This document shows, piece by piece, positions 4,670-19,218 of a stretch of DNA of 20,191 bases. The notes under the pieces were generated by a model that was given only the letters and a program-made list of their open reading frames with translations, did not search any database and was not told the DNA's origin. The stretch lies in IMG/VR virus record IMGVR_UViG_3300031673_000611, positions 1-20,191 of that record; one strand, given 5' to 3'. The translations under genes and the position numbers were made by a program. This DNA comes from a virus. Every line of letters begins with the position of its first letter. Position 1 is the stretch's first letter.

Positions 4670-7600
4670 ATGGCTTTAACAGAAGATCTAATGGTCAAAA
4701 TAGGTGTAGATGCCGGGGATGCGTCAAAGTCCCTCAGCAACCTATCTAAGAGCCTGGGGCAAGTGTCTGAGTCAGAGGAACAGGTCATCAAGTCCAATGA
4801 GGATTTGGGCAAGAGCGTCAACGGCCTGAAAATCAATATCGTAGCCTTGAACCAAGGTCTCGACCTTGCCAAAAAAGCCTACGGGGCTTTGACCGGTCCA
4901 ATCAAAGCCGCTACCGCTTTGTTTATTGAACAAGATAAACAGGAACAACAGCTAGCTAACACCCTAAAAGTATTGGGAGAATTCACAGAAGCAGCCTTCA
5001 CTGATTTCAAGCAATTTGCCTCTGGTCTGCAGGAGATTTCAACCGTAGGTGATGAGACGACCCTCCAATTGATTTCTATGGCCAAAGCCCAAGGATTGAG
5101 CAATGAGGCCACCAAAAAACTTATCAAGACTTCAGTTGATCTTGGCGCAGCTACTGACAAGGATGTGAACACCACATTTAGGAGCTTGCTCCAAACCTAT
5201 TCGGGGTCAGTCGGGCTTTTGGGCAGAATGGGGGCTGAGTTCAAGGGGCTCACCGAGGCTGAGTTGAAAGCAGGGGTCGCTATTGATATTGCGGCCAAGA
5301 AGTTTGATGGATTCGCACAGGTTGAGGCAAAGACCTTGGCTGGATCCCTTACTCAAATGAGCAATGCCTTTGGAGATCTACAAGAGCAAATAGGACAGAC
5401 ATTTTCTGAGTTGATAAACCTGCCTGGAATCGTTCGTGTCTTAACTGACGCGATTATGTTGATGCAGACCGCCGTTATAAATCTTAGGAATGGCGGCTTG
5501 GAGAAATTGTCCAAGGCTGTACTTTCCCTGGGCGTGTCATTCACTATTCTATTCGCCATTATGAAGCGGGCCGCAATACAGGCCTTCATAGCCAAGATAA
5601 TAGCTATGACCGTAGCGATGTGGGCGCAGGTCACAGCTACACTGGCAAGCCGAGCGGCCATCCTGGCTATGGGTCAGGCGGCTCTTATTGCTAGCGTCAA
5701 ATTACTAGCCGTTGTCGCCTCAGTGACCGCTATTGTCGTGGCCGTTGATATATTGATAGCCAACTGGCATCAATTGGGTGTCGTTTGGGACTTGGTTAGC
5801 AACGCTATTATATTCGGCTTCTTGAAAGTCGGTGAAACGGTTGCCAAGGGTATTGATTTCATAGTCACCAAAGTATTGGAACTCTCTGAAGCCATGAACA
5901 AAATGAACCTCGTCTCCGATGGGGTAGTTGAGTCAGTTAGGAACATATCTACTCAATCCAAGGGCTCCCTTGAGCTATTTGCCAAAAATCTGGATGAGGT
6001 TGGAGACAAAGGGCAGGAAGCTCTTGATAAATTAGAGCCTGGAACATTGATACCTGCCTTCAAGTCAATGACCTCAATCTTTGAAGCCAATGCAGGGGCC
6101 GCGAGTGGTGGTGAAAAAGCTGCCGAAGGTGCCGCGAAGGCGCTGGCCAAAATGGGCAAAGAATCAAAAGCGGCAGGCAAGGCGGCAGAAGAAGCCGCTA
6201 AGAAATTTGAGGCCATGAGCAAGATGGCTCAAGAAATCGCCGATCAGAATATTGCAATGGCCTTTGACATTGCATCGATGTTAGCCACTGACACTGAAAA
6301 GGTTCAGCTCAAGTTGGCTCAAGACATGATGGCTCTTGATATTAAGAAGCAAGAGCTCAAAGCCCAAAAGGGCTTGACCAAAGAACAGGCCATAGTCAAT
6401 AAGGCCGCGCTTGAGTTCTTGAATATTCGCGGGAACCTAATTGGCGAAAAGGCCCGCCTTGAGATATTGGCTTTGCAGGTCGAAAAACTAGAAGAACAAA
6501 AGAAGGTCGCTGAAGATCTCCTGGCTGGCAATAGAATGATGGTTAGTCTCATCCAGGGGGCCAACGACACAGAAATCCAAGCCATAGATAGAAAACTAGC
6601 TTTAGAGCTAAAGCTTCTTGATAAAAAAGCCAAAGAACTCAAGGACTCACAGAACCTAACCGCTGAGGCAGAGAATCAACTTGATGTTCGTCGCAAATTG
6701 CTGAGGCTCCAGGCCGTTGAAGATAAGAAGGCCTCAAGGCAAAAATTCAAAGAGGCCGGCGAAAAGCCGTTGTTCGACACCGGTCAACTGACAACCATTA
6801 CTTCTGCCCTGGGGGAGTCAACAGGTGCAATGGCTGGAGCGGCTAGCGGAATGGCGGCGGCGGGCATGGGGATGATTGGCGCGGCGGGGATGATCCTTGA
6901 TGCAGGCACCTCGATGCTCAATGCTATCCCTGGGCTGTTTGATAAAGCTTCAAAATTCGTGAATACCCTCACTGACTTTGGCACCACTATGGCCGAATCA
7001 ATAGAGAACTTCATGGACTCCTTAATTAGATTCGCTGAAGAATTCATTCCTAATTTGATAAATGGGATAAGCAGAATCTTAGACGCAATTGTTGATGGCA
7101 TGCCCCAAATAACTCAAGGGATCTTAGACACCTTCAAAGAATTGCCCAAGATGCTCATGAAGTTCATGGATAGATTGCCTGACCTGTTCCAAAGATTAAT
7201 TGAAGATTTTGTTGAGGCTATCCCCACTATCATCGTCGCTTTTATCGAAATGATTATTGAGAACCTGCCCAACCTAGTCGCGGCATATTTCAAGCTCTGG
7301 CCTAAGCTGGCATTGGCTCTGGTCAAAGGGATCATTAGAGGTCTCAGGAAATTCTTTGCCAATATCGGCGTGATCAAAATGGACACCGGCGCCATTGATA
7401 AAATCACTGAGAAATTCAATGAGGGAGTTAAGGCTCTAACTGAAAAGGCCACGAACGTCGCCTCAAAGGTTTTCCAGGTGCTTGAACTCGACGAGGGTGG
7501 CAAGGGCCTGGAGGCCGCGAAGAATGCTGAGAAGCAAGCCAAAGAAGTTCTAAAGAAAATGGTGTCCTGGATCATGAAGCTCATCGAGCTATGGCGTAAA

Positions 7601-8896
7601 CTTTGGAAATGGATCAACGAAAAAATCATCCAACCTTTCACTAAGGTTTGGAGGAAGCTTTGGAAATTCATCAAGAAAGTTCTTACGGTCGCCGCTGAAG
7701 CCCTACAGGTTGTATTTGACTTTGTTCAAATCGTATTTGAGGCCTTCACCGAAGCTATAGAGCTAGCTTGGGAGACCATTGGGACTATATTCAATGAGTT
7801 CATTTCTGGGGTCAACAAGGCTTGGAGTTGGTTCAATGAAAACGTGGTCAAGGAGTTCGCCAAAGGGCTACAGATAGCCTTTGATTCTATAAAGACAACT
7901 TTCACTGATTTCATCACTGACTTTGGAACTGCCATAACTGACCTAGCCACCACGTTCACCGATGGGGCTACCGGTCTAATGGACTTCATCACTGACTTTG
8001 GAACAGCCGTAGATGAGGCAGGGGGCAAGATAGCTGAAGGTTGGAAAACGGCTATGGGTGAAATGACAGACTTCGTCAAGGGACTCGGAGGGAAGATAGC
8101 TGAAGGTTGGAAAGACAAGATGGGCAATCTCCCGAACACGATTAAGAATATCGGTGGTGACATAGCTCTCGGCTGGAAAGACAAGATGGGCAATCTCCCA
8201 AACACAATTAAGGATATCGGAGGTGACATAGCTCTCGGATGGAAAGACAAGATGGGGAACCTGCCGAACACCATCGCAGGATTTGGCGCTGATATGGCTT
8301 ATGGATTCCGAGATAAGTTCAATGACTTAGTTAGCGGTATGGGTAAGAAATTTGCTCAGATTTTCTCAGATAACATTTCACTTCCAAGTGTTGGTGGTGG
8401 TGGTGGTGGTGGTTTCTTAGGGACTGGAATCGGGGCCTTCGGTGGACTAGCTGCTAATCTCCCAATGTTCGCAGGCGGTGGATTGGTTCCAGGTTCTGCC
8501 GTGACCCCAGGCAATAGCTTTAGGAATGACAGGATCCCGGCTCTACTATCACCCAATGAGGTGGTCATCCCTAGATCAGTCACCCAGGACTCAGCCATGA
8601 TGAGTCTAGCTATGGCTTTGGCTAGGGGCCAACTAAGCAAGTTTCAAGCTGGGGGCCTCGTGTTGCCTCAGGGGGCCGCGACCAGGGGGTTGACGTCACC
8701 GGCTAGCCAAGGCTCACAGGGCGCCACCAATAACATCACCCAGAACATTGAGATAGACATGAGCGTTGATGTATCAGCTGAAAACCTTGATAGTTCCTTC
8801 GTAAGAGACAAGCTGATTCCAGTTGTCAAGGATGCCTTGAGACAAGCCAGCGTTCAGGGTGAGCTCTTGATAAATGAAAAAGGGGTCTTTGCGTGA
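4670..8896 (+). CDS. Tape measure protein
   Basis: This 1408-residue protein is the largest tail gene and follows the chaperones directly. Residues 1-280 are mostly helical, with long Ala/Leu/Lys coils. Residues about 281-380 hold several hydrophobic stretches (for example LLAVVASVTAIVVAVDILIA), as expected for a protein thought to enter the host membrane during DNA delivery. Residues 480-770 are Lys/Glu/Ala coils. A 22-aa repeat occupies about 1118-1213. A seven-Gly run at about 1242-1248 precedes GGGLVPG and RIPALLSPNEVVIPRS (about 1268-1306), a motif common in tape measure proteins before the C-terminal strand. The C-terminus (NNITQNIEIDM) is also typical. By the usual 0.15 nm per residue, the tail would be roughly 210 nm. 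Confidence 0.95.
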   Translation: MALTEDLMVKIGVDAGDASKSLSNLSKSLGQVSESEEQVIKSNEDLGKSVNGLKINIVALNQGLDLAKKAYGALTGPIKAATALFIEQDKQEQQLANTLKVLGEFTEAAFTDFKQFASGLQEISTVGDETTLQLISMAKAQGLSNEATKKLIKTSVDLGAATDKDVNTTFRSLLQTYSGSVGLLGRMGAEFKGLTEAELKAGVAIDIAAKKFDGFAQVEAKTLAGSLTQMSNAFGDLQEQIGQTFSELINLPGIVRVLTDAIMLMQTAVINLRNGGLEKLSKAVLSLGVSFTILFAIMKRAAIQAFIAKIIAMTVAMWAQVTATLASRAAILAMGQAALIASVKLLAVVASVTAIVVAVDILIANWHQLGVVWDLVSNAIIFGFLKVGETVAKGIDFIVTKVLELSEAMNKMNLVSDGVVESVRNISTQSKGSLELFAKNLDEVGDKGQEALDKLEPGTLIPAFKSMTSIFEANAGAASGGEKAAEGAAKALAKMGKESKAAGKAAEEAAKKFEAMSKMAQEIADQNIAMAFDIASMLATDTEKVQLKLAQDMMALDIKKQELKAQKGLTKEQAIVNKAALEFLNIRGNLIGEKARLEILALQVEKLEEQKKVAEDLLAGNRMMVSLIQGANDTEIQAIDRKLALELKLLDKKAKELKDSQNLTAEAENQLDVRRKLLRLQAVEDKKASRQKFKEAGEKPLFDTGQLTTITSALGESTGAMAGAASGMAAAGMGMIGAAGMILDAGTSMLNAIPGLFDKASKFVNTLTDFGTTMAESIENFMDSLIRFAEEFIPNLINGISRILDAIVDGMPQITQGILDTFKELPKMLMKFMDRLPDLFQRLIEDFVEAIPTIIVAFIEMIIENLPNLVAAYFKLWPKLALALVKGIIRGLRKFFANIGVIKMDTGAIDKITEKFNEGVKALTEKATNVASKVFQVLELDEGGKGLEAAKNAEKQAKEVLKKMVSWIMKLIELWRKLWKWINEKIIQPFTKVWRKLWKFIKKVLTVAAEALQVVFDFVQIVFEAFTEAIELAWETIGTIFNEFISGVNKAWSWFNENVVKEFAKGLQIAFDSIKTTFTDFITDFGTAITDLATTFTDGATGLMDFITDFGTAVDEAGGKIAEGWKTAMGEMTDFVKGLGGKIAEGWKDKMGNLPNTIKNIGGDIALGWKDKMGNLPNTIKDIGGDIALGWKDKMGNLPNTIAGFGADMAYGFRDKFNDLVSGMGKKFAQIFSDNISLPSVGGGGGGGFLGTGIGAFGGLAANLPMFAGGGLVPGSAVTPGNSFRNDRIPALLSPNEVVIPRSVTQDSAMMSLAMALARGQLSKFQAGGLVLPQGAATRGLTSPASQGSQGATNNITQNIEIDMSVDVSAENLDSSFVRDKLIPVVKDALRQASVQGELLINEKGVFA
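8021..8306 (+). repeat. 66-bp (22-aa) tandem repeat in the tape measure gene
   Basis: Units begin at 8021, 8087, 8153, 8219 and 8285, each exactly 66 bases apart. The protein unit is close to GGDIALGWKDKMGNLPNTI plus a three-residue tail. The third and fourth units are almost identical at DNA level, while the first and fifth have diverged. Copy number can change in frame, which would change tail length by about 22 residues per unit. Confidence 0.85.
8393..8413 (+). repeat. (GGT)7 microsatellite in the tape measure gene
   Basis: Seven GGT codons in a row encode a poly-Gly linker (SVGGGGGGGFL). The run lies between the 22-aa repeats and the GGGLVPG motif. Slippage would change the Gly count without shifting the frame. 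Confidence 0.9.
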
Positions 8897-9910: not shown

Positions 9911-11692
9911 ATGGCGAACAGCGATAGAAAACCGTATTTGACCGCCACGGTCCTTGACCAGGATCTTTTGGACAATGCCCAGGATAACCTAGTCAATGAT
10001 TTTGAAATGATCGTTGATATAGAGACCCCCACGGCTGAGGTCCTGCATCTTTCTGACCGGAATAAATATGTAGGCTCAGGGGATCCAGGCGACGCTGGGG
10101 TATTTTATGAAGCTAGGGTCAGATTCCCCATCATCAAAAAGACCATCGGTGAGTTTCTATCACCCGCGATCAAGTTTTCGACCTTGAGCCTTGAGATCAA
10201 TAATGCTGACGGGAAATTTAATAGATTGCTGCCAGCGGGCGATGACTATGATGGCTGGATTGGTCGAAAAGTCACAGTAAGCCTCGGGCTTCGCAATCTA
10301 AAATCATCTTACTTCAAAATATTTGAGGGCTCAGTCTCCCCAAAGGGGGGCTTTGAACGAACTGTCAAGAGCTTCACTTTGGTAGCCCGCAACAAGTTTG
10401 AGGAGATCAATAAGAGCTTCCCCAGAGAAGTATTCAAGATAGCCAACACGCCTGACATTGAGCCGAATTATGACAACACGATAATTCCTTATGTTTATGG
10501 AGATTGGACAGTTGTTGTTGAGCCAGGGGGCGCCTCATTGAAGGCCATCCCTGTGAATGGCAATAGCGTCAACGTCAATGGCGGTGATGATGTGACCCCA
10601 GGCGACCATACGGTCAATGTTTCAGTGGTTATATCTGACAACGCCAACACCTTTTTTGACAGCACTGAAGTCTACATAAAGAGGGGAGACTTTTTCTTCA
10701 AGTTTGACCCTGCTGATATTGTGAACGTGTCAGTCAACAAGAACAGCTTTCAAGTTAGGCAGGCTGGGACAGCTCCAGCCGGTGTGACTATGGTGGATGG
10801 AGCTCTATATGAATTCACCAAAGGAGATATTTTTCTTGTTAAGGCGAAGGGCAAGGATCTAGGCGCGGCAGGGGTCAATGATAACAACATAGTTGAGCAG
10901 GCGCGTGACATTTTGTTGACCTTTGGGGGCGCCTCTGCCCTGGACTTCACCTCGAATTGGGACACAGTCAGGGATAAAAACACTCCAGCATTCCCGGTTC
11001 AAGATGCGGTGAAGCAGGTGCTATCAAGAATCTGGGCTCAAGAACCTCAGAACTCATTAGATTTTGCCCTATCACTACTTGAGCAGGTAAGAGTTGAGCC
11101 GTTCATAAATAGGGACCAAAAGATTGATCTCAGTACATTGCATTTCAGCGACTTTGTGAACCCATCGTCTACCCCTACGCTCAAGAATTGGGACATTGTT
11201 CGGCCGACTCTACAGCCAAAAATTGATGATCGTACCAACCTCAACAGGGCAAAAGCGGTCTTCAATTTTCTTCCAAACAGAAATGAAGAATTCAACGAGA
11301 CAAAAATATTTAAGAATACCGCCGCCATAACTCAATCAGGGGTGGAAGAATCTAAGAAGATTGTATTCCCGAATCTATACGCTATAGGCGACGCTGAAAG
11401 GCAGTTGATAGAGACCATACGCCTAGCGTCATCAACTCCTGAAAACATTTATTTGAGCGCCACCTGGAGAAGCATGCTGAGAGATATCGGTGATTTCATT
11501 CTCCTAGATGTTGATATTGAGGGCGTTATTTTCGCCAACGTCCCATGCCTTGTCAGAGAAATAGGATATGATCCAAACGGTATCAAACTGCCTATGAGAC
11601 TTTGGAGCTTTCAAATGACCCCATTCCCCGGCTATACGCCTGGTTATCCCGGGACCATTGGCGGTTATAATCAAACGATTACAGAGGAGTAG
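9911..11692 (+). CDS. Probable baseplate hub / tail-associated structural protein
   Basis: This 593-residue protein has an N-terminal part with strands and the DGWIGRKVTVSLGLRNL turn (about residues 115-132) typical of hub proteins, where a 'W-x-G-x-x-v-x-v-x-x-G' strand forms the ring. The middle (about 210-310) is rich in beta strands and Asn/Val. The C-terminus has a helical LIETIRLAS segment and a DFILLDVDIEG strand, then ends in a Gly/Pro/Tyr-rich tail (FPGYTPGYPGT). The order tape measure, Dit-like, this gene fits a hub (gp27-like or Tal-like) role. No peptidase motif was seen. It starts one base after the upstream stop with only a weak ribosome binding site. Confidence 0.6.
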   Translation: MANSDRKPYLTATVLDQDLLDNAQDNLVNDFEMIVDIETPTAEVLHLSDRNKYVGSGDPGDAGVFYEARVRFPIIKKTIGEFLSPAIKFSTLSLEINNADGKFNRLLPAGDDYDGWIGRKVTVSLGLRNLKSSYFKIFEGSVSPKGGFERTVKSFTLVARNKFEEINKSFPREVFKIANTPDIEPNYDNTIIPYVYGDWTVVVEPGGASLKAIPVNGNSVNVNGGDDVTPGDHTVNVSVVISDNANTFFDSTEVYIKRGDFFFKFDPADIVNVSVNKNSFQVRQAGTAPAGVTMVDGALYEFTKGDIFLVKAKGKDLGAAGVNDNNIVEQARDILLTFGGASALDFTSNWDTVRDKNTPAFPVQDAVKQVLSRIWAQEPQNSLDFALSLLEQVRVEPFINRDQKIDLSTLHFSDFVNPSSTPTLKNWDIVRPTLQPKIDDRTNLNRAKAVFNFLPNRNEEFNETKIFKNTAAITQSGVEESKKIVFPNLYAIGDAERQLIETIRLASSTPENIYLSATWRSMLRDIGDFILLDVDIEGVIFANVPCLVREIGYDPNGIKLPMRLWSFQMTPFPGYTPGYPGTIGGYNQTITEE

Positions 11693-11694
11693 AT

Positions 11695-12402
11695 ATGCCT
11701 GCGATACTTTTGACAGTTTCAGAGTCTATCAACGGGGCTGTCGTCTCTGACTTGCTCAACGGAGGTGGAGCGGGCATAGACATGGGCTCCATTTTGAACA
11801 ACTCATATGGGCCTCTAGGGCCTGGAGGTCCAAGTGATAATAGCGGGGCGCAGAACGCCTATGTACGCCACAATGGGGTCAATCCCATAACGAATTTCAG
11901 GACCATGATTAGACCCTTCGGGCAAATTACAGGTTTTTCCTATGCAGGGGCTGAGTCTCCAAATGATGATTTCACTCAATTGAAAAATTTGGGGAATGCT
12001 TCAGGAGATTCAAAGAATAATGCTGATGGCCTTTCAGGTGGCGTTTGGATCGACATGGATGCCGATGTTGCTTCAATAAACGCCTTTGATTTCTCCAACA
12101 ACGGCTTTGATTCAGTGGGTGGATCCAAGGGGGGTAATGATAGCGTCCGCAAATTTGGTGACAATCTCATTGATGGAGTGACCCTAGAAGAATCTTTCCC
12201 AATCAAGGGGTCAGCAATGGTCTATGATTCCGGTGGTGAAACCGTAGCCTCCGCGCCGGTTGATGAGCAGCTTGGAGAGTCAGGAAACACTGTCCTGGGT
12301 GACAACTTCAAAGCCAAGATAAGAGCCTATCTACCTGACAATTTTGACAAGTCAGGGGTGCTCCAATTCGAGTGGGTGCTAGTCTACGCTTTCACTACAT
12401 AA
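11695..12402 (+). CDS. Putative tail-tip structural protein
   Basis: This 235-residue protein is rich in Gly, Asn, Asp and Ser (SYGPLGPGGPSDNSGAQ, then DFSNNGFDSVGGSKGG) and ends in a beta-rich LQFEWVLVYAFTT segment. Small Gly/Asn-rich proteins of this sort between hub and fibre genes are usually baseplate or fibre-attachment proteins, but I do not recognise this one. GAGGAG at about 11685-11690 is a good ribosome binding site. It begins two bases after the hub gene. The stop codon lies in a small AT-rich palindrome at 12398-12413. Confidence 0.6.
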   Translation: MPAILLTVSESINGAVVSDLLNGGGAGIDMGSILNNSYGPLGPGGPSDNSGAQNAYVRHNGVNPITNFRTMIRPFGQITGFSYAGAESPNDDFTQLKNLGNASGDSKNNADGLSGGVWIDMDADVASINAFDFSNNGFDSVGGSKGGNDSVRKFGDNLIDGVTLEESFPIKGSAMVYDSGGETVASAPVDEQLGESGNTVLGDNFKAKIRAYLPDNFDKSGVLQFEWVLVYAFTT

Positions 12403-12430: not shown

Positions 12431-12811
12431 ATGCTTCAGCTAAGGTGGCGACTTGAATATGCAAATAGACCGGCCAGGGTTGGTCGGTGGAATGATCTCG
12501 ATTCACCCAAGCAATGTATGGCCGCTTATGCCCCCAAAGATGGGCTACTTGAGGCTGTAATTGAAGCTAAACTACCTGAAGGAATAATCCGAAGGGTTGG
12601 AGGATGCAACGGATCTGAGTGGGAGGCCTTCCAAACTTTGGCGGCGGCCCATATGCCAGGGTTCTTCAAGGGAACTATCCAACCCGCTCATAGATTTGTC
12701 GGAATGATTCTATATACTAACGATGAAAAAGCCTTTTTCTTGACCACAGGCAAGGCCTGGAAAGAGGTAAGAACAGATCACAACATTCAGTTTGAGGGAT
12801 GGACACAATGA
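12431..12811 (+). CDS. Hypothetical protein upstream of the fibre gene
   Basis: This 126-residue protein starts LQLRWRLEYANRPARVGRWN and has a mixed alpha/beta pattern with a FVGMILYTNDEKAFFLTTG strand pair near the end. I do not recognise a family. It has no signal peptide or membrane segment. An AAGGA site at 12421-12425 lies five bases before the ATG. It ends in an ATGA overlap with the giant fibre gene, so it is probably translated together with it. It may help assemble or anchor the fibre, or act as its chaperone, but this is inferred only from gene order. Confidence 0.6.
   Translation: MLQLRWRLEYANRPARVGRWNDLDSPKQCMAAYAPKDGLLEAVIEAKLPEGIIRRVGGCNGSEWEAFQTLAAAHMPGFFKGTIQPAHRFVGMILYTNDEKAFFLTTGKAWKEVRTDHNIQFEGWTQ
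12794..12798 (+). promoter_or_regulatory. Ribosome binding site that fixes the fibre start
   Basis: GAGGG at 12794-12798 is directly adjacent to the first in-frame ATG (12799), too close to use it. It sits nine bases before the ATG at 12808 and twelve before the ATG at 12811. The start at 12808 is therefore preferred. It overlaps TGA of the upstream gene (12809-12811). Confidence 0.7.
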
Positions 12812-15800
12812 TGAAAAAGATCGTTTTACTGCTTACATTGATCATGGCTCCAGCCGTATTCGGGCAGGTTACGACCAGTACGAACGTGGGCAGAGATCAA
12901 ATAGCCCATCCTGATTTTACTCATCAAAGAGGGATTGGATTACACACCAAGATCCGGGACGCTTGGACCGCAATGTCAGATGACATTTCTGGCCGCTTTG
13001 ATGCTTACTCGTCCATTGCTAATGCCACCACTACAACAGTCACCCACAATCTAGGTTTCGTATTGGCTGACATTGGAGTTCAGATTTATTCAGGAACCCA
13101 TCCAACTCTTACCAAAGTATGTGAGGTAGCAGGTACTTCAGACGATTGCACCGGACTCGGCTGGTTGATTGCGGCAGGTCCAACTCCAAACACTCAGATT
13201 GATGTTACGACGCCCCCTGGAGGTGGCCCTCACACTTTTGCTGTCGTTATTGGCAATGGTGGCGGCGGTGGAGCTGCTGACCTTCAAGGGGCTTATGAAG
13301 GTGGTAACTCGATTAACACAAGTCCAGGCTTCGGACCGATCCTAGTCACCGGGGATCAGTCTCTTGACCTTACAATGACTGGAGTCGTCCCAGCTCTGAA
13401 GATAACCAAAAACACAGGTGTCGCTCAGGCTTTAGAGATTATCCAGAACGCGAACTCAGCAGGTGTCTCCCTGACTAATAACGGGACTTCAACGGGGATG
13501 AATATAACTAACTCCTCGAGCTCAGGAGTCGCCCTAGATGTTAACAACTCCTCCGGAGTCGCGGCTGTGGATATCTCACAGAACACTGGGAACGCGAACG
13601 CTCTAAGAGTTAATAGTTCAGTCTCAGAGGCGGCTCTCTATCTGGACGCCGGACCGAATCACAGACAGATTAAAATGGTCGCGGCTGATTCCAATGACAT
13701 AGAGATCTTCACGACAGCCGTTATTCCTACGTCATGGGACTGGACGCTCCCTCCTGACAACGGAGATCCTGGAGAAGTTCTTCAGACAAACGGGAACGGA
13801 GTCACGACCTGGGAGCCTGGAGGAGCGACTGATCTCCAGTCAGCCTTCGACGGCGGGGAGAATATAGTCATAGCTGACACAGTCAATAAGACGGTCACGA
13901 TAACTAATAACAATGTGACAGATGATCCCATAGCTCTGAGGGTGGTTAATAATAACGCTCAGAATAACGCTATCAGGGTAGAGACGACAGGAGCTGCTAT
14001 CGGAGTCTCAGGAGTCTCTATAAGCCACGGAGCGACCGGATCATCTTCTTCGGCTTTAGATGTTAGAGCAACGGCTGGAGTCGGAGCCACGGCTAAGGCG
14101 GCGTTCTTCAGGACCGATAACGACGCAGCTTCCGCTTCGGTCGAAGCCACATCAAACGGGACCAGTGTTCCGGTGTTTAAGGCGTCAACGGTCTCCAGTG
14201 GATCGTCATTCTTAGCTGTCGCTTCAACGGCTCCAGCTCATGATTTTAATTTTAAACAAGCCTTCACATCATCATGGGACTGGACTATCCCCCCAGATGA
14301 TGGAGACGCTGGAGAGTTCCTTCAGACTGACGGTAATGGCGTCACAACTTGGGAATCTGTCCCAAGCCCAAGCCTTCAAGATGTTTTTGATGTTGCACAA
14401 ACAATAACGATTGCTGACACCGACAACCAAACGCTTCTTATGACCAATAACGACACGACTAATAATCCGAAGACTCTGAGCATGGTGAACACTTCTAATG
14501 GAGGCGATATAACAATCGACCATAACGGAAGTTTCGGCAAGTCGATTGAGATTCTCCATTCTTCTGGATCTCAGGCATTAGATATTTCCCATGATGGCAA
14601 TTCAGCCGCCGCAACTGTTGAAATAGAATCGACAAGCGAAATTTCAGTCGGGCCTGGAATGTTACTAACGACCAAGAACTTAGGCCCTGCTTCAGTTGTA
14701 AAGAAACTCGATGTGGTAAGTATCGTGGCTCCAGCAGCAAGAGGTTCAGTGTTAGAACTTGGTAACGAAGAAACTTTTAACACTAGCCCGCTTGTCGATA
14801 TAAATCAGTCCGGTCCAGGTCGGTCAGTTGAAATTATCTCCACCAACGGAGTTGGAACGAGTGCTCTACTACATATAAAATCAGCGAACTCCGCAGGTCC
14901 AGTCGCAGGCAACGCTCACATAGGTCTTGAAGCGGGAGACGCTTCGGGGACTGTCGGCATTGAAGTCCCTGTTAGTGGAGTCACATCGTACTCTATACAA
15001 CTCCCAGCTTCTCAAGGTGGAGCCGGAACGTCCCTGTCGAATGATGGAACAGGGGTTCTTAGTTGGGTCTCAACACCTGCGGCTGACACTCGGCAAAGCA
15101 CATACGATGCTGGTCCCGACACATCTTTGTCTACCGCAAGCCTTGTTGTGGATAACGACTCAGTAAGTCCGACTTCAAGCTTTTCAATAGAGGCATCGAA
15201 TGCTGAAGTGACGGAATTGTTGGTTGGAAACTCTGGGACATTTTTTGACGTAGTTGGGTCTGCAAAAGCTGTGATCATTCACAACGGAGATAACGGCAGA
15301 TATTATTTCTGGTTCAATGTGACAGATGGGAGCAACTCTCAAACAGACCCAGCGATAGGCGGGACGCAAGTCCAAGTTGACATTCTTGATGCTGACACAG
15401 CCTCTGATATAGCGGGAAAACTTCAGTCTTCTATAGACACACTTCCTGATTTCGGAGCGGGCGTGGCTACTGCAACAGTCACAGTTACAAATGCTAAGAC
15501 TGGTGAATCCATAGATGCTTCCATAGTGGATTCCGCTCTAACATCGGCCACTGTAACAACTCAGGGTTCTGGTAGCCCGTATATTAAAGCTACAAGCTCG
15601 GTTAATCCAACTTTGATGAAACTAGAAAGCACTTATGGAGGGTTTGGTGGATTCTGGGAGCCAGTGTTGGCTATCACTTCAACTAATCCTGTCGGTCCTT
15701 CAATCGGCACACCTCAGGGATTTGGATCTATTCCTTCTGACGATTTTAGTATTAAAACAGGCATCAATTTAGGAGGAGATGGGGGAACAGGATCTATTCA

Positions 15801-17994
15801 GATAAGCACAGGCGGTTCCGGCTCAAACCCTTCTGCTCGCGGAACCATGCTGTTAGACGCCTATTCACTTATCGCGAATGCAGACACAACGATATATATT
15901 CAGTCTCAGACAGGATTGATTGAAGTGAGTCCAGGAACTGTGGAGGCTTCAGACGACTTTAACGGAGGAACATCAATACCTACTGCCCTAACAATCAGGG
16001 GGTCCGATAAAGCTTCTGGCTCTGCTAAAGGAGGCGATGTTGTTGTTCGTGGTGGTGACGGTTTTGGCATAGGGAACAATGGAGGCGATCTTCTTCTCAG
16101 AGGTGGTGATGGAGTTGGAGCGGGATTACCTGGAGTTGTTCGGCTAGGTGGAGATCTAGATCTCAATGGAAATAGTATTATTGATGGTGCTACCACCATT
16201 CTTACCTTGGCTGGGTCAGGTAATGTTGGACTAGGCGAAGACGCTCAGGCTGGATACCTAGGGGTTGATTCTGTAGCTATAGGAACCGATGCGATGTCTT
16301 CGGTGGCAGTCGGTACTGCTTCTGAAAATGTTGCAATTGGTTCCGGTGCTATGGACTCGGCATCACTGGGAGATGCAAGGCAGAATGTAGCGATTGGCCA
16401 AAATTCCATGACAGCAATCACAACTGGTGATGGCAATGTGGCGATTGGGCAAGCTTCCGCGCAAAGCCTTACAACTTCAATAGGAAATACAATCATTGGT
16501 CAAGGTGCAGACAACATAGGAACGAAAAGCTTTTCAATTGCCTTAGGTACTAACGCTGTATTACCGCCTGGCGCGGGTTCTCCAATGATGCAGCTAGGTA
16601 ACGCGATAGTTGGCGGGAACGGGCGAATTGGGCTTATACAGATTGGGCCTGACAATACAACCATCAAACTATCAGATCACACTACAGCCGATGCAACGCA
16701 GGCCGGGAGCTTTACATTAAGATCGGGAAAAAAAACGGCAGGCACCGGGGGCGGTGGAGACATAATCCTTGATACAGGGACGGGTTTTGGCGGTGGTTCA
16801 AAGGGGATAGTTAAAGCCCCAGATGACGCCGCGAACAATGGAGCGAAAGCGCCTAACTTAGACTTTCAAGCCGGGAATAAAACAGCGGGGACAGGCAACG
16901 GTGGAGATGTAACTATCACGACAGGGACGGGTTTTGGCGGTGGCGCGGTTGGAGATATCAAGCTCAGTGCGGCTGGTATAGAAGGGCTCGGGGTCGCTAA
17001 CCTTCCTTCGGGAAGCGCTTTCGACTTCATAAGTTCAGCCTCCGGTCCAGTGAACTACAAGTCGGCGACAGAAGGACTCTTCGGAACTGGGACAGCCTCG
17101 CTCTTCGAGATTAAGACGACCATCGCCGGGAAGGACATCGCTCTCGTCGCTGGAGATGGGGACGCTAAACTGTCAGCGACAGGCGGGAATCTCCAAGGGA
17201 CAGCGGACACTGTCACCGGAGGGAACTCTCTAGACTTCGTGAACAGTGCGGTCGGAGACGTGAACTTCTACGCGGGGAACGGATCCTCCACATTCGAGGG
17301 GTTCTCTTCTGACGGAGCCGGGATCCTTGGAGCGTCTGACATGATGCTCGGATCGCTGACCACTAACAAGACCTTGAGCATCCTGACCGCGGGGAGCTCG
17401 GCGAATATCACGATCGCTCCGGGAACAGATTCCGACATAATCCTTCAGACCAACGGGACAGGCGACGAGATCATCCTGACCGACGGGAACGCTAATAATG
17501 TCGGTGACGTGTGGACGGCGACGGACACGGCTGGATCTGGCCAGTGGCAAACTCCTGGCGTCATTGTTAAGAAAAAACTCGAAAGCTTGGCCTTCGATGT
17601 GACTGGAAGCTTCACAGCTAGTGAACTGTGCAAGCAAGTCTTCACAGTCGGACAGTTTCCTGACGACTCAATAATCACAGAGGCCCTATTCAAAGTCACC
17701 ACAGCTATAACTGGTGACGCTAACGATGACATTAGGACACGGGGTCAGCTCTATGGTGATTCTGGATGTACCACTTCGGCTATAGGCGCAGGTAGAAGTA
17801 TTGAAACCAATGGAGATACAAACGGGAACGAGCTTAGAACAGCGGGATCTTTCTCCTATGTCAACACCGTTTCTGGCACGACTGACGTAGCAGGTACAAA
17901 CGGCTTATATATACGGATGACCGACAACAGCGTTGCAAACGCCACGATCGACACCGGAAATATTGACGTAAAAATTACTTTTATAACCCCATAA
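12808..17994 (+). CDS. Giant repetitive tail fibre or adhesin with a Sec signal peptide
   Basis: This 1728-residue protein begins MMKKIVLLLTLIMAPAVFGQ, a clear signal peptide: basic start, hydrophobic core and a probable cut after VFG. Next comes a fibre-like domain (HTKIRDAWTAMSDDISGRF, then TVTHNLGF). From about residue 150 on it is Ser/Thr/Gly/Asn-rich, with recurring LQ-x-A-(Y/F)-x-x-G starts (DLQGAYEGG, DLQSAFDGG) and a 180-aa duplicated module with SWDWT and NGVTTWE. A YadA-like run of AIG and ALG repeats (VAIGTDAM, NVAIGSGAM) lies at about residues 1138-1252, then Gly-rich TGTGFGGG repeats. The C-terminal 145 residues look globular, with Cys residues. Phage fibres normally carry no signal peptide, so an exported adhesin encoded by the phage is the alternative. 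Codon choice changes inside the gene. Confidence 0.75.
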   Translation: MMKKIVLLLTLIMAPAVFGQVTTSTNVGRDQIAHPDFTHQRGIGLHTKIRDAWTAMSDDISGRFDAYSSIANATTTTVTHNLGFVLADIGVQIYSGTHPTLTKVCEVAGTSDDCTGLGWLIAAGPTPNTQIDVTTPPGGGPHTFAVVIGNGGGGGAADLQGAYEGGNSINTSPGFGPILVTGDQSLDLTMTGVVPALKITKNTGVAQALEIIQNANSAGVSLTNNGTSTGMNITNSSSSGVALDVNNSSGVAAVDISQNTGNANALRVNSSVSEAALYLDAGPNHRQIKMVAADSNDIEIFTTAVIPTSWDWTLPPDNGDPGEVLQTNGNGVTTWEPGGATDLQSAFDGGENIVIADTVNKTVTITNNNVTDDPIALRVVNNNAQNNAIRVETTGAAIGVSGVSISHGATGSSSSALDVRATAGVGATAKAAFFRTDNDAASASVEATSNGTSVPVFKASTVSSGSSFLAVASTAPAHDFNFKQAFTSSWDWTIPPDDGDAGEFLQTDGNGVTTWESVPSPSLQDVFDVAQTITIADTDNQTLLMTNNDTTNNPKTLSMVNTSNGGDITIDHNGSFGKSIEILHSSGSQALDISHDGNSAAATVEIESTSEISVGPGMLLTTKNLGPASVVKKLDVVSIVAPAARGSVLELGNEETFNTSPLVDINQSGPGRSVEIISTNGVGTSALLHIKSANSAGPVAGNAHIGLEAGDASGTVGIEVPVSGVTSYSIQLPASQGGAGTSLSNDGTGVLSWVSTPAADTRQSTYDAGPDTSLSTASLVVDNDSVSPTSSFSIEASNAEVTELLVGNSGTFFDVVGSAKAVIIHNGDNGRYYFWFNVTDGSNSQTDPAIGGTQVQVDILDADTASDIAGKLQSSIDTLPDFGAGVATATVTVTNAKTGESIDASIVDSALTSATVTTQGSGSPYIKATSSVNPTLMKLESTYGGFGGFWEPVLAITSTNPVGPSIGTPQGFGSIPSDDFSIKTGINLGGDGGTGSIQISTGGSGSNPSARGTMLLDAYSLIANADTTIYIQSQTGLIEVSPGTVEASDDFNGGTSIPTALTIRGSDKASGSAKGGDVVVRGGDGFGIGNNGGDLLLRGGDGVGAGLPGVVRLGGDLDLNGNSIIDGATTILTLAGSGNVGLGEDAQAGYLGVDSVAIGTDAMSSVAVGTASENVAIGSGAMDSASLGDARQNVAIGQNSMTAITTGDGNVAIGQASAQSLTTSIGNTIIGQGADNIGTKSFSIALGTNAVLPPGAGSPMMQLGNAIVGGNGRIGLIQIGPDNTTIKLSDHTTADATQAGSFTLRSGKKTAGTGGGGDIILDTGTGFGGGSKGIVKAPDDAANNGAKAPNLDFQAGNKTAGTGNGGDVTITTGTGFGGGAVGDIKLSAAGIEGLGVANLPSGSAFDFISSASGPVNYKSATEGLFGTGTASLFEIKTTIAGKDIALVAGDGDAKLSATGGNLQGTADTVTGGNSLDFVNSAVGDVNFYAGNGSSTFEGFSSDGAGILGASDMMLGSLTTNKTLSILTAGSSANITIAPGTDSDIILQTNGTGDEIILTDGNANNVGDVWTATDTAGSGQWQTPGVIVKKKLESLAFDVTGSFTASELCKQVFTVGQFPDDSIITEALFKVTTAITGDANDDIRTRGQLYGDSGCTTSAIGAGRSIETNGDTNGNELRTAGSFSYVNTVSGTTDVAGTNGLYIRMTDNSVANATIDTGNIDVKITFITP
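13732..14490 (+). repeat. Duplicated 180-aa module inside the fibre gene
   Basis: Copy 1 starts at 13732 and copy 2 at 14272, exactly 540 bases apart. Each begins SWDWT, then an acidic Gly-rich turn, then LQT-x-GNGVTTWE, then an LQ-type start and an (I/V)(T/V)IADT strand with T-N-N repeats. The protein match is strong but the codons differ (for example GGA GTC ACG in copy 1, GGC GTC ACA in copy 2), so the duplication is old or the copies had different histories. Confidence 0.8.
16774..16943 (+). repeat. Gly-rich repeat pair in the fibre gene
   Basis: A 23-base perfect repeat occurs at 16774-16796 and 16921-16943, 147 bases (49 codons) apart. Both encode TGTGFGGG within the longer pattern KTAGTG-x-GGD. 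A related, looser unit (KGGDVVVRGGDGFGIGNNGG) lies upstream at about 16027-16083. Confidence 0.85.
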
Positions 17995-18052: not shown

Positions 18053-18368
18053 AGTTGGAACAGGAGCGATAGGCGGCGGGATCTCCGTCGCGTCCGTCGC
18101 TTGGTTCTTCTTTAATCGCTATATTCAAAGGACTGATAAGAAACACGACGAGCATGACGCTGCGATTAAAGACCTTTCAAAAGGATTATCTGAAGTCAAT
18201 ACAGGGATTAGGGTAATTGAGGCAAGGATAGGTGAAGCGTTATCACTTAGAGATCAAGTTACCGATAACGTCCGAGATATAGCTGTTAACTATGAGCGAA
18301 TTGATAGGTGTCAGAACGATATAGACAAAGGTCTTCAATCTGTAAGAAAAAAACTGGGGGGTTTATGA
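18030..18368 (+). CDS. Small membrane protein with a coiled coil, first gene of the lysis cassette
   Basis: This 112-residue protein starts at GTG. AGGGGAG at 18017-18023, six bases upstream, supports the start. Residues about 10-30 (GTGAIGGGISVASVAWFFFN) form one membrane segment. Residues 34-108 are charged and heptad-like (DKKHDEHDAAIKDLSKGL and beyond), a likely coiled coil. The acidic N-terminus and the RYIQRTDKK after the membrane segment suggest, by the positive-inside rule, that the coil is cytoplasmic, which argues against an i-spanin. A holin or holin-associated (XhlA-like) role is possible. It ends in an ATGA overlap with the next gene. Position upstream of an amidase supports a lysis role. 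Confidence 0.55.
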   Translation: MDLGSIAEVGTGAIGGGISVASVAWFFFNRYIQRTDKKHDEHDAAIKDLSKGLSEVNTGIRVIEARIGEALSLRDQVTDNVRDIAVNYERIDRCQNDIDKGLQSVRKKLGGL

Positions 18369-18703
18369 ATTACTTATTACTTCTTTTATTTTCTTCAATT
18401 GCATTTTCTCAGGAAAATGCTCCAGATCCAGTTGATGCAATAGTTGCACTGCAAAACCTTGACGGAGGTATGGTTGCAAAGATTATCGGTATCGCAGTAG
18501 GCGTTCAGATACTTCTTTACGGTACTGGCGAGGCATTGACTCGAATATCTAAGTTCACTGAAGCAAAATGGGATAACAAAGCAGCCGAAAAGATTTCTCA
18601 GGCCGCATGGATCATGGGTTCTCTTATTTCAAAGTTTGGTTATTCAGTCCCTAAGCATGTTATCGAAGAAAAAGCTAAACAGATGAGGGATAAAAATGAG
18701 TAA
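18365..18703 (+). CDS. Candidate holin with a signal peptide
   Basis: Starting at ATG 18365 (ATGA overlap with the preceding gene) gives 112 residues beginning MNYLLLLLFSSIAFSQ, a short signal peptide. A longer frame from 18308 would hide the signal behind a basic leader, so the 18365 start is preferred. After an acidic linker, residues about 34-57 (GMVAKIIGIAVGVQILLYGT) form a membrane segment. A second, amphipathic helix (KISQAAWIMGSLISKFGY) and a Lys-rich tail follow. A holin two genes before an amidase fits. The signal peptide would give an N-out mature form, which is unusual for a holin. The codons are notably AT-rich. GAGGGA near its end (18685-18690) serves the next gene. Confidence 0.55.
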   Translation: MNYLLLLLFSSIAFSQENAPDPVDAIVALQNLDGGMVAKIIGIAVGVQILLYGTGEALTRISKFTEAKWDNKAAEKISQAAWIMGSLISKFGYSVPKHVIEEKAKQMRDKNE

Positions 18704-18950
18704 ACCCATAGACACAGTTCAATTGCTTTTGGCCCTTATCGGTTTGATTAAATCCGCGTCAGTGGCTATCTCAGTTGTTAGTGTTCAATGGGCTATGGCA
18801 AAAGCAAGTCACTCTAAGAAAAATCAAATTGTCGCAGAGAATGAACTCGCGGCAGAGAAAGAGAAATTGGAGTTGAAAAATGAAGAGACTGTTACTGATA
18901 TTGGTGATCGCATTCTTGACAACCAAGGCGCAAGCGGTCGAAAAAAGTGA
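18696..18950 (+). CDS. Small membrane-anchored coiled-coil protein, possible spanin partner or antiholin
   Basis: This 84-residue protein starts at ATG 18696, overlapping the upstream stop by eight bases, with GAGGGA five bases upstream. Residues about 8-32 (VQLLLALIGLIKSASVAISV) form one membrane segment. Residues 40-84 are Lys/Glu-rich and helical (AENELAAEKEKLELKNEE). The single N-terminal anchor plus coil and the long overlap with the next gene resemble the layout of Rz-type i-spanins. The basic KASHSKKN right after the anchor instead suggests a cytoplasmic coil. An antiholin or holin regulator is the alternative. The next gene begins 71 bases before its end in another frame. Confidence 0.5.
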   Translation: MSKPIDTVQLLLALIGLIKSASVAISVVSVQWAMAKASHSKKNQIVAENELAAEKEKLELKNEETVTDIGDRILDNQGASGRKK

Positions 18951-19218
18951 AATTACACTTGATAAAAGTCGTTGTAAAGAAAATGAGAAATGCGTCTGCT
19001 ATGGTCAAAATTATCTAACTGCTATTGAGGAATTTTATAAGAAGGCTACCGAGTGCCAATCAGATATCAAACATGCCAGAATAACGATAGATGAGCTAAA
19101 GAAATTTGGTAAAGATAAGGAGCCGCAATGGTATCAAGAACCTGGCGTAATAGCTGGCGGAATTCTTATCTCCTTTTCCTTCGGTGCATTGCTAACTTAT
19201 CTGGTCGTAAAGCAATGA
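18880..19218 (+). CDS. Signal-peptide protein with a C-terminal membrane anchor, spanin-like
   Basis: This 112-residue protein begins MKRLLLILVIAFLTTKAQA, a clear Sec signal peptide with an A-Q-A cut site and no lipobox Cys. Mature residues 20-85 are periplasmic, with Cys32, Cys38, Cys40 and Cys59 and a helical charged stretch (YLTAIEEFYKKATECQSD). Residues about 88-112 (GVIAGGILISFSFGALLTYL) form a C-terminal membrane segment. Its start lies within the previous gene, with TGGAG at 18868-18872 as ribosome binding site. Among the four small proteins here, only this one clearly faces the periplasm, so it is the best spanin candidate. It is not a standard o-spanin or u-spanin because it lacks lipid attachment. 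Confidence 0.55.
   Translation: MKRLLLILVIAFLTTKAQAVEKSEITLDKSRCKENEKCVCYGQNYLTAIEEFYKKATECQSDIKHARITIDELKKFGKDKEPQWYQEPGVIAGGILISFSFGALLTYLVVKQ

Follow-up and report, generated by a model that had tools for sequence, protein, structure and literature searches.

An export signal on the fibre of a siphovirus-like phage suggests that such fibres cross the cell envelope rather than assembling wholly inside the cell

Tail operon and fibre gene of the window

The window, i.e. the whole stretch of DNA analysed here, is an entire IMG/VR record of 20,191 bp and represents a fragment of a siphovirus-like genome (Table 1). Its fibre gene extends over 12808-17991, with the stop codon reaching to 17994, encodes 1728 aa and opens with MMKKIVLLLTLIMAPAVFGQ... 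/ MMKKIVLLLTLIMAPAVFGQVTTSTNVGRDQIAHPDF. The mechanical start of this open reading frame is an alternative in-frame ATG at 12799, 9 nt upstream of the ATG at 12808; we prefer the latter, because the spacing of the GAGGG element fits it and because it overlaps the stop codon of the upstream gene as ATGA (12808-12811).

Table 1. Tail-operon features of the window, in positions of the 20,191-bp record
Feature	Position	Strand	Remarks
Tape-measure-like protein	4670..8896	+	Long helical ORF preceding the tail proteins; putative, from length, composition and position
593-aa conserved tail protein	9911..11692	+	Query by which relatives were located and placed
Conserved tail-module protein	11695..12402	+	Lies after the 593-aa tail protein and before the small gene; order kept in relatives
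Small conserved gene	12431..12811	+	Immediately 5' of the fibre gene, also in relatives
SD-like GAGGG	12794..12798	+	9 nt before ATG 12808
Sec-type signal peptide (predicted), 19 residues, MMKKIVLLLTLIMAPAVFG	12808..12864	+	Cleavage predicted before Q20
Mature fibre N-terminal domain	12865..13272	+	R..LDHPxLGxxGGxxLH motif; homologous to 56 other fibre N-termini at the same locus
Long fibre shaft and tip	13273..17991	+	Repeat blocks

An earlier note had read a Sec signal at the start of this fibre, and both its sequence and its coordinates proved correct. The segment consists of an n-region (MMKK), an h-region (IVLLLTLIMAPA) and the residues VFG before Q20, with small residues at -3 and -1. 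Under a home-made signal rule (basic n-region, uncharged h-region, small residues at -3/-1; threshold 4.5) it scored 6.24; as controls, 1/405 proteins from eight other structural classes and 6/850 whole-protein shuffles reached the threshold. The best evidence that the signal is more than chance comes from a further six contigs whose signals occupy this position, which also makes a chimeric assembly unlikely. With Q20 at +1 and the first cysteine at residue 105, the lipobox of signal peptidase II substrates is absent, and the fibre is predicted not to be a bacterial lipoprotein. Tailed-phage assembly is taken to be cytoplasmic; the evidence supports the view that this fibre of the tail operon starts with what looks like a genuine 19-residue Sec signal, which is unusual for a tailed phage.

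The remainder of the protein carries five VAIG/IALG motifs at residues 1155-1250 and only four cysteines in 1728 aa (105, 114, 1608, 1654). Searches against Pfam, PHROG and NCBIfam gave no match at E<=0.1, and the fetched loci held no relatives of the shaft and tip beyond the N-terminal domain. As shaft and tip match no fibre family, the label 'fibre' rests on the N-terminal domain and the gene order; in a signal-bearing relative (L006), residues 1250-1395 match PHROG tail fibre 11393. At the same cutoff, neither a YadA C-terminal anchor barrel (whole protein against Pfam) nor a type IX C-terminal sorting domain (NCBIfam) was found, so that, on these profiles, the protein neither has the anchor of a YadA-type autotransporter nor counts as recognised type IX cargo.

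The earlier note was also right that lysis genes carry signal peptides: the ORF at 18880-19218 begins MKRLLLILVIAFLTTKAQA, and that at 18308-18703 contains MNYLLLLLFSSIAFS. The product of 18880-19218 combines a signal peptide with a C-terminal hydrophobic segment, is encoded beside an Amidase_2 endolysin in the lysis region, and may be a spanin-like part.

Signal-bearing and signal-less relatives

As sole query, the N-terminus of the window fibre had no match in viral contigs. The 593-aa tail protein retrieved 5 viral loci as a query and 74 as a profile, and at 59 loci (window included) a downstream ORF held a domain of ~135 residues, the N-domain, at or near its start; this domain (motif in Table 1) recurs at the corresponding locus of many uncultured siphovirus-like IMG/VR contigs. 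Extra scans brought in L091/L108, L092/L109, L094, L110 and L112-L115, and once near-copies and short fragments had been taken out, 57 N-domains were compared. In 84,980 genomes scanned with tail-protein and signal-bearing N-domain patterns, no prophage or host relative was confirmed. The tail protein had no match among cultured phages, and the TerL encoded on the contig of L008 is only ~30% identical to those of Tunturiibacter and Thermus phages.

Translation begins 1-7 residues before the N-domain, without a signal, in 50 of the 57; in the other seven a signal peptide immediately precedes it. These counts are not a frequency estimate, since retrieval was pattern-based and the scan with the signal-bearing alignment favoured signal-bearers; in the set retrieved via the tail protein plus L076, they number 5/59. 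With cleavage sites predicted by eye and rule, the signals are MMKKIVLLLTLIMAPAVFG before Q (window), MRFLALFLSLFVGVASLA before D (L004), MARYLAFVLALFAVLSARA before D (L006), MKRFKFLIPLGFVAFATMLLA before H (L011), MRVFRFVILATLLTFVFG before H (L030), MRTLFKVLFLTLVCGLLTA before H (L108) and MRYIKFLAFIASLFIQDASYS before V (L110). Rule scores are 4.5-6.4 across the seven and 0 in the 50 signal-less fibres; the weakest, L110, was included by inspection at 4.48, just below the threshold.

Mean pairwise identity is 29% among the seven signals, 23% among shuffled signals and 47% in the N-domain, yet all seven keep a basic n-region, an h-region and small -3/-1 residues. Signal peptides evolve in this way, diverging while keeping their character, which speaks against a specific docking role of the segment. 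Between predicted cleavage and the [GS]R motif lie 3-8 residues, compared with 3-9 including Met in signal-less fibres; cleavage is thus predicted to restore an N-terminus resembling theirs, which in the window would read QVTTSTNVGR... An SD-like sequence precedes the signal-peptide start in 7/7, while no start codon between signal and N-domain motif is preceded by one or conserved. An internal start yielding a signal-less isoform was rejected as unlikely on these grounds, and it appears that the preprotein is made. A disulfide rationale for export was likewise rejected, as cysteine counts do not separate the two kinds of fibre.

The N-domain is single-copy in 11/11 contigs searched, seven of them signal-bearing (two of those ~49 and 56 kb); a second, signal-less copy in signal-bearing phages was sought in these contigs and not found. 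At columns conserved in signal-less fibres, signal-bearers retain 78% of consensus residues (the window alone 59%) and signal-less fibres 83%, which places the domain under similar constraint in both types. PHROG matches of its members are weak, 12 to a 'tail protein' family and 10 to a baseplate/tail-fibre connector family. AlphaFold2 predicts for the window a helix plus an Ig-like beta sandwich, with pLDDT mostly >90 at residues 21-150 and 57-62 in the signal. A fold search with the domain returned matches of Ig-like arrangement (VIA-align Z up to 6.7), among them a P1 baseplate chain (9vzk_Y, Z 5.7), which do not suffice to classify it, and one viral-model match (A0A6J5PFT0, 44% identity). 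We infer that it is a tail-attachment domain.

Exchange of the signal and other exported products of the group

Signal-bearers are scattered across the 593-aa tail-protein tree, requiring 5 changes, all forced by supported branches, and holding them as one clade was rejected (p 2.5e-90; the first tree, from which this value stems, left L109, a signal-bearing near-copy of L108, unlabelled and gave 6 changes, or 5 without L109). On the fibre-domain tree, built without the signal residues, they cluster with 2 changes (shuffled mean 6.8; 0/500 shuffles as low), and the one-clade constraint was not rejected (p 0.63), the constrained tree scoring slightly better. Since its bearers are scattered on one tree and clustered on the other, the signal goes with a fibre type that is exchanged horizontally, and stays with it. 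The simplest account of these trees, which by themselves do not show gain versus loss, would be a single signal-bearing lineage of fibre N-termini, exchanged at this locus between distant phages with the signal kept each time.

This pattern bears on two points of the earlier note. Homologous fibres starting downstream of the hydrophobic segment, which it had named as evidence against the signal, do exist (50/57), but the seven that keep it come from divergent phages and follow one fibre type. The fusion of a host adhesin start to a fibre, which it had also proposed, is not supported as a one-off event at this fibre, the pattern fitting a single old origin with later horizontal exchange in which the signal was kept.

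Genes with signals turn up repeatedly in these phages, so that Sec-tagged tail-module products are customary in the group and no peculiarity of the window. Of the 21 phages in which a signal-less N-domain gene is short (<600 aa) and the gene after it can be annotated, 9 have a signal by rule in that next gene, and in L013 the corresponding gene has a signal by eye. Such downstream genes match Peptidase_S74 and PHROG tail fibres in L045 and a PHROG tail fibre in L044; in L036, a signal-bearing gene with a Collar domain comes after a long N-domain gene. On the upstream side, close to the tail-tube gene, a small protein family whose members combine a signal with four invariant cysteines (C ... 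CxxCxxC) occurs at ~10 loci, including the signal-bearing L004, L006 and L030.

Several further genes of these loci were recorded. Second signal-bearing fibre-like genes lie directly 3' of a signal-less N-domain gene at L017:13999-16920, L043:14254-16233, L044:14843-16081, L045:6808-8496, L036:15460-16290 and L060:14597-16612; four of the six have Laminin_G_3, Peptidase_S74, Collar or PHROG tail-fibre matches. Members of the four-cysteine family are encoded at L004:817-1221 and 1257-2003 and L006:647-1030 and 1058-1801, as well as in L020, L025, L028, L030, L037, L044 and L064. AlphaFold2 predicts a jelly-roll-like fold for them, with weak matches to disulfide-linked Bacillus endospore appendage proteins (7a02, Z 7.5; 8pdz, Z 6.7) and to many small uncharacterised phage proteins. 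A lipoprotein of ~290-325 aa with conserved cysteines recurs 3' of fibres (L006:16977-17945; L007:15621-16565; L013:16399-17373; L047 and others). Genes inserted between tail protein and fibre, carrying the motif FYVYAHYD..YIGKG or a close variant, look like GIY-YIG endonucleases (L013:11838-12752; L014:12612-13511; L022:5828-6772; L023:3505-4509). Host-type signal-bearing proteins, namely a papain-like protease (QGQCGSCYAF) and CxxCH-motif proteins, are found in L074 (~20304-21398) and downstream of the fibres in L072 and L075, and a signal-bearing 640-aa protein near fibres (L041:6207-8129) resembles a glycoside hydrolase in sequence (FRLWILWNEW).

Export of the fibre and comparison with known systems

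From the form and placement of the signal, its upkeep in seven divergent phages, its linkage to one fibre type, the single N-domain copy and the lack of an alternative start, all read from the sequences, we infer Sec export, cleavage, folding outside the cytoplasm and tail attachment at lysis. The 19-residue start would act as a signal for Sec and signal peptidase I on a fibre made as a preprotein, which would cross the inner membrane unfolded and lose the signal to expose its mature N-terminus. The mature fibre would then fold and oligomerise outside the cytoplasm and, once the inner membrane fails at lysis, be added to otherwise finished tails via its N-terminal domain. That the fibre takes this route and still serves as a virion fibre we rate a little short of an even chance. 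T4 long fibres, which attach to fiberless particles, provide a precedent for late addition (PMC3004832). Against export and late mounting, it seems an inefficient route for a giant multimer to fold in the periplasm and encounter virions no earlier than lysis, and the cysteine content does not point to oxidative folding. The literature searched contained no tailed phage with a periplasm-folded fibre joining virions at lysis, and the hits examined included no paper on signal peptides of tailed-phage fibres.

The protein may instead be exported for good, as a displayed or released adhesin or receptor blocker that, for example, masks the receptor on the infected cell and so keeps progeny from re-adsorbing. 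The form of the signal agrees with this, signal-bearing and lipoprotein genes are common near the fibres of these phages, and exported surface proteins made by phages are known, e.g. lambda Lom, which is encoded between the tail-spike and tail-fibre genes (PMC12309495). A phage so equipped would be left without an N-domain fibre, however, the domain being single-copy and constrained like its virion-type counterparts, and no anchor or sorting domain was found in Pfam or NCBIfam; we consider this outcome unlikely, but still a serious competitor. Mounting on tails is preferred over a pure adhesin because the sole copy of a virion-type domain stays constrained. Among the three options of the earlier note, an unusual use of the signal in fibre assembly therefore fits best, with the sole domain copy and its conserved residues kept; the exported adhesin remains its rival, and the host-adhesin fusion is not supported.

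A signal look-alike on a cytoplasmic fibre, whose hydrophobic N-terminus has a role in the virion such as plugging into the tail, would accord with the normal behaviour of tailed-phage fibres, which assemble in the cytoplasm and attach to the tail by their N-termini. It appears improbable, since the seven segments share Sec character but hardly any sequence, unlike a docking surface, the signal-less counterparts manage without the segment, and an exposed Sec-like start that is not used would be expected to be lost. Slightly more doubtful still is a signal read by Sec but cleaved late or never, by which fibres would be held at the inner membrane for tails to dock before release: the hydrophobic stretch could double as an anchor and holin-triggered release would presumably suit, but the small -3/-1 residues in 7/7 are those expected for signal peptidase I, cleavage would restore the usual N-terminus, and the N-domain would be periplasmic, away from the cytoplasmic tails.

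Returning to export followed by mounting, a broader and more tentative proposal, to which we give appreciably less than an even chance, is that tailed phages of one lineage construct their host-recognition fibres, and perhaps further proteins of the tail module, outside the cytoplasm: Sec-exported, matured in the envelope and mounted at lysis, with export as a swappable trait of the fibre allele. The natural pairs of signal-bearing and signal-less fibres at the same locus make completion of virions outside the cytoplasm directly testable. If the protein were purely an export product, an attachment protein would have turned into a secreted one, which matters for superinfection and receptor masking. 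Either way, a signal peptide is no proof of a host gene in fibre annotation or fibre-based host prediction.

The closest comparison is with signal-less fibres of the same phage group (L026, L075, L076, L047), which share the N-domain, locus and gene order and are single-copy where searched, but begin MTIVGR... or MSTIVGR... without a signal peptide. The long tail fibre of T4 (gp34-37) is, as proposed here, made apart and added to finished particles (PMC3004832), but T4 fibres fold and attach without Sec export. Lambda Lom is likewise signal-bearing and encoded among tail genes (PMC12309495), but is an outer-membrane beta-barrel and not a fibre with a tail-attachment domain. The M13 coat proteins pIII and pVIII are virion proteins with signal sequences, assembled from the membrane; filamentous phages assemble in the membrane, however, and tailed phages do not. 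Trimeric autotransporter adhesins of the YadA type resemble the window protein in having a signal followed by a long repetitive fibre, including a few VAIG-type head-like repeats, whereas no YadA anchor domain was found in the window protein, which begins with a phage fibre N-domain.
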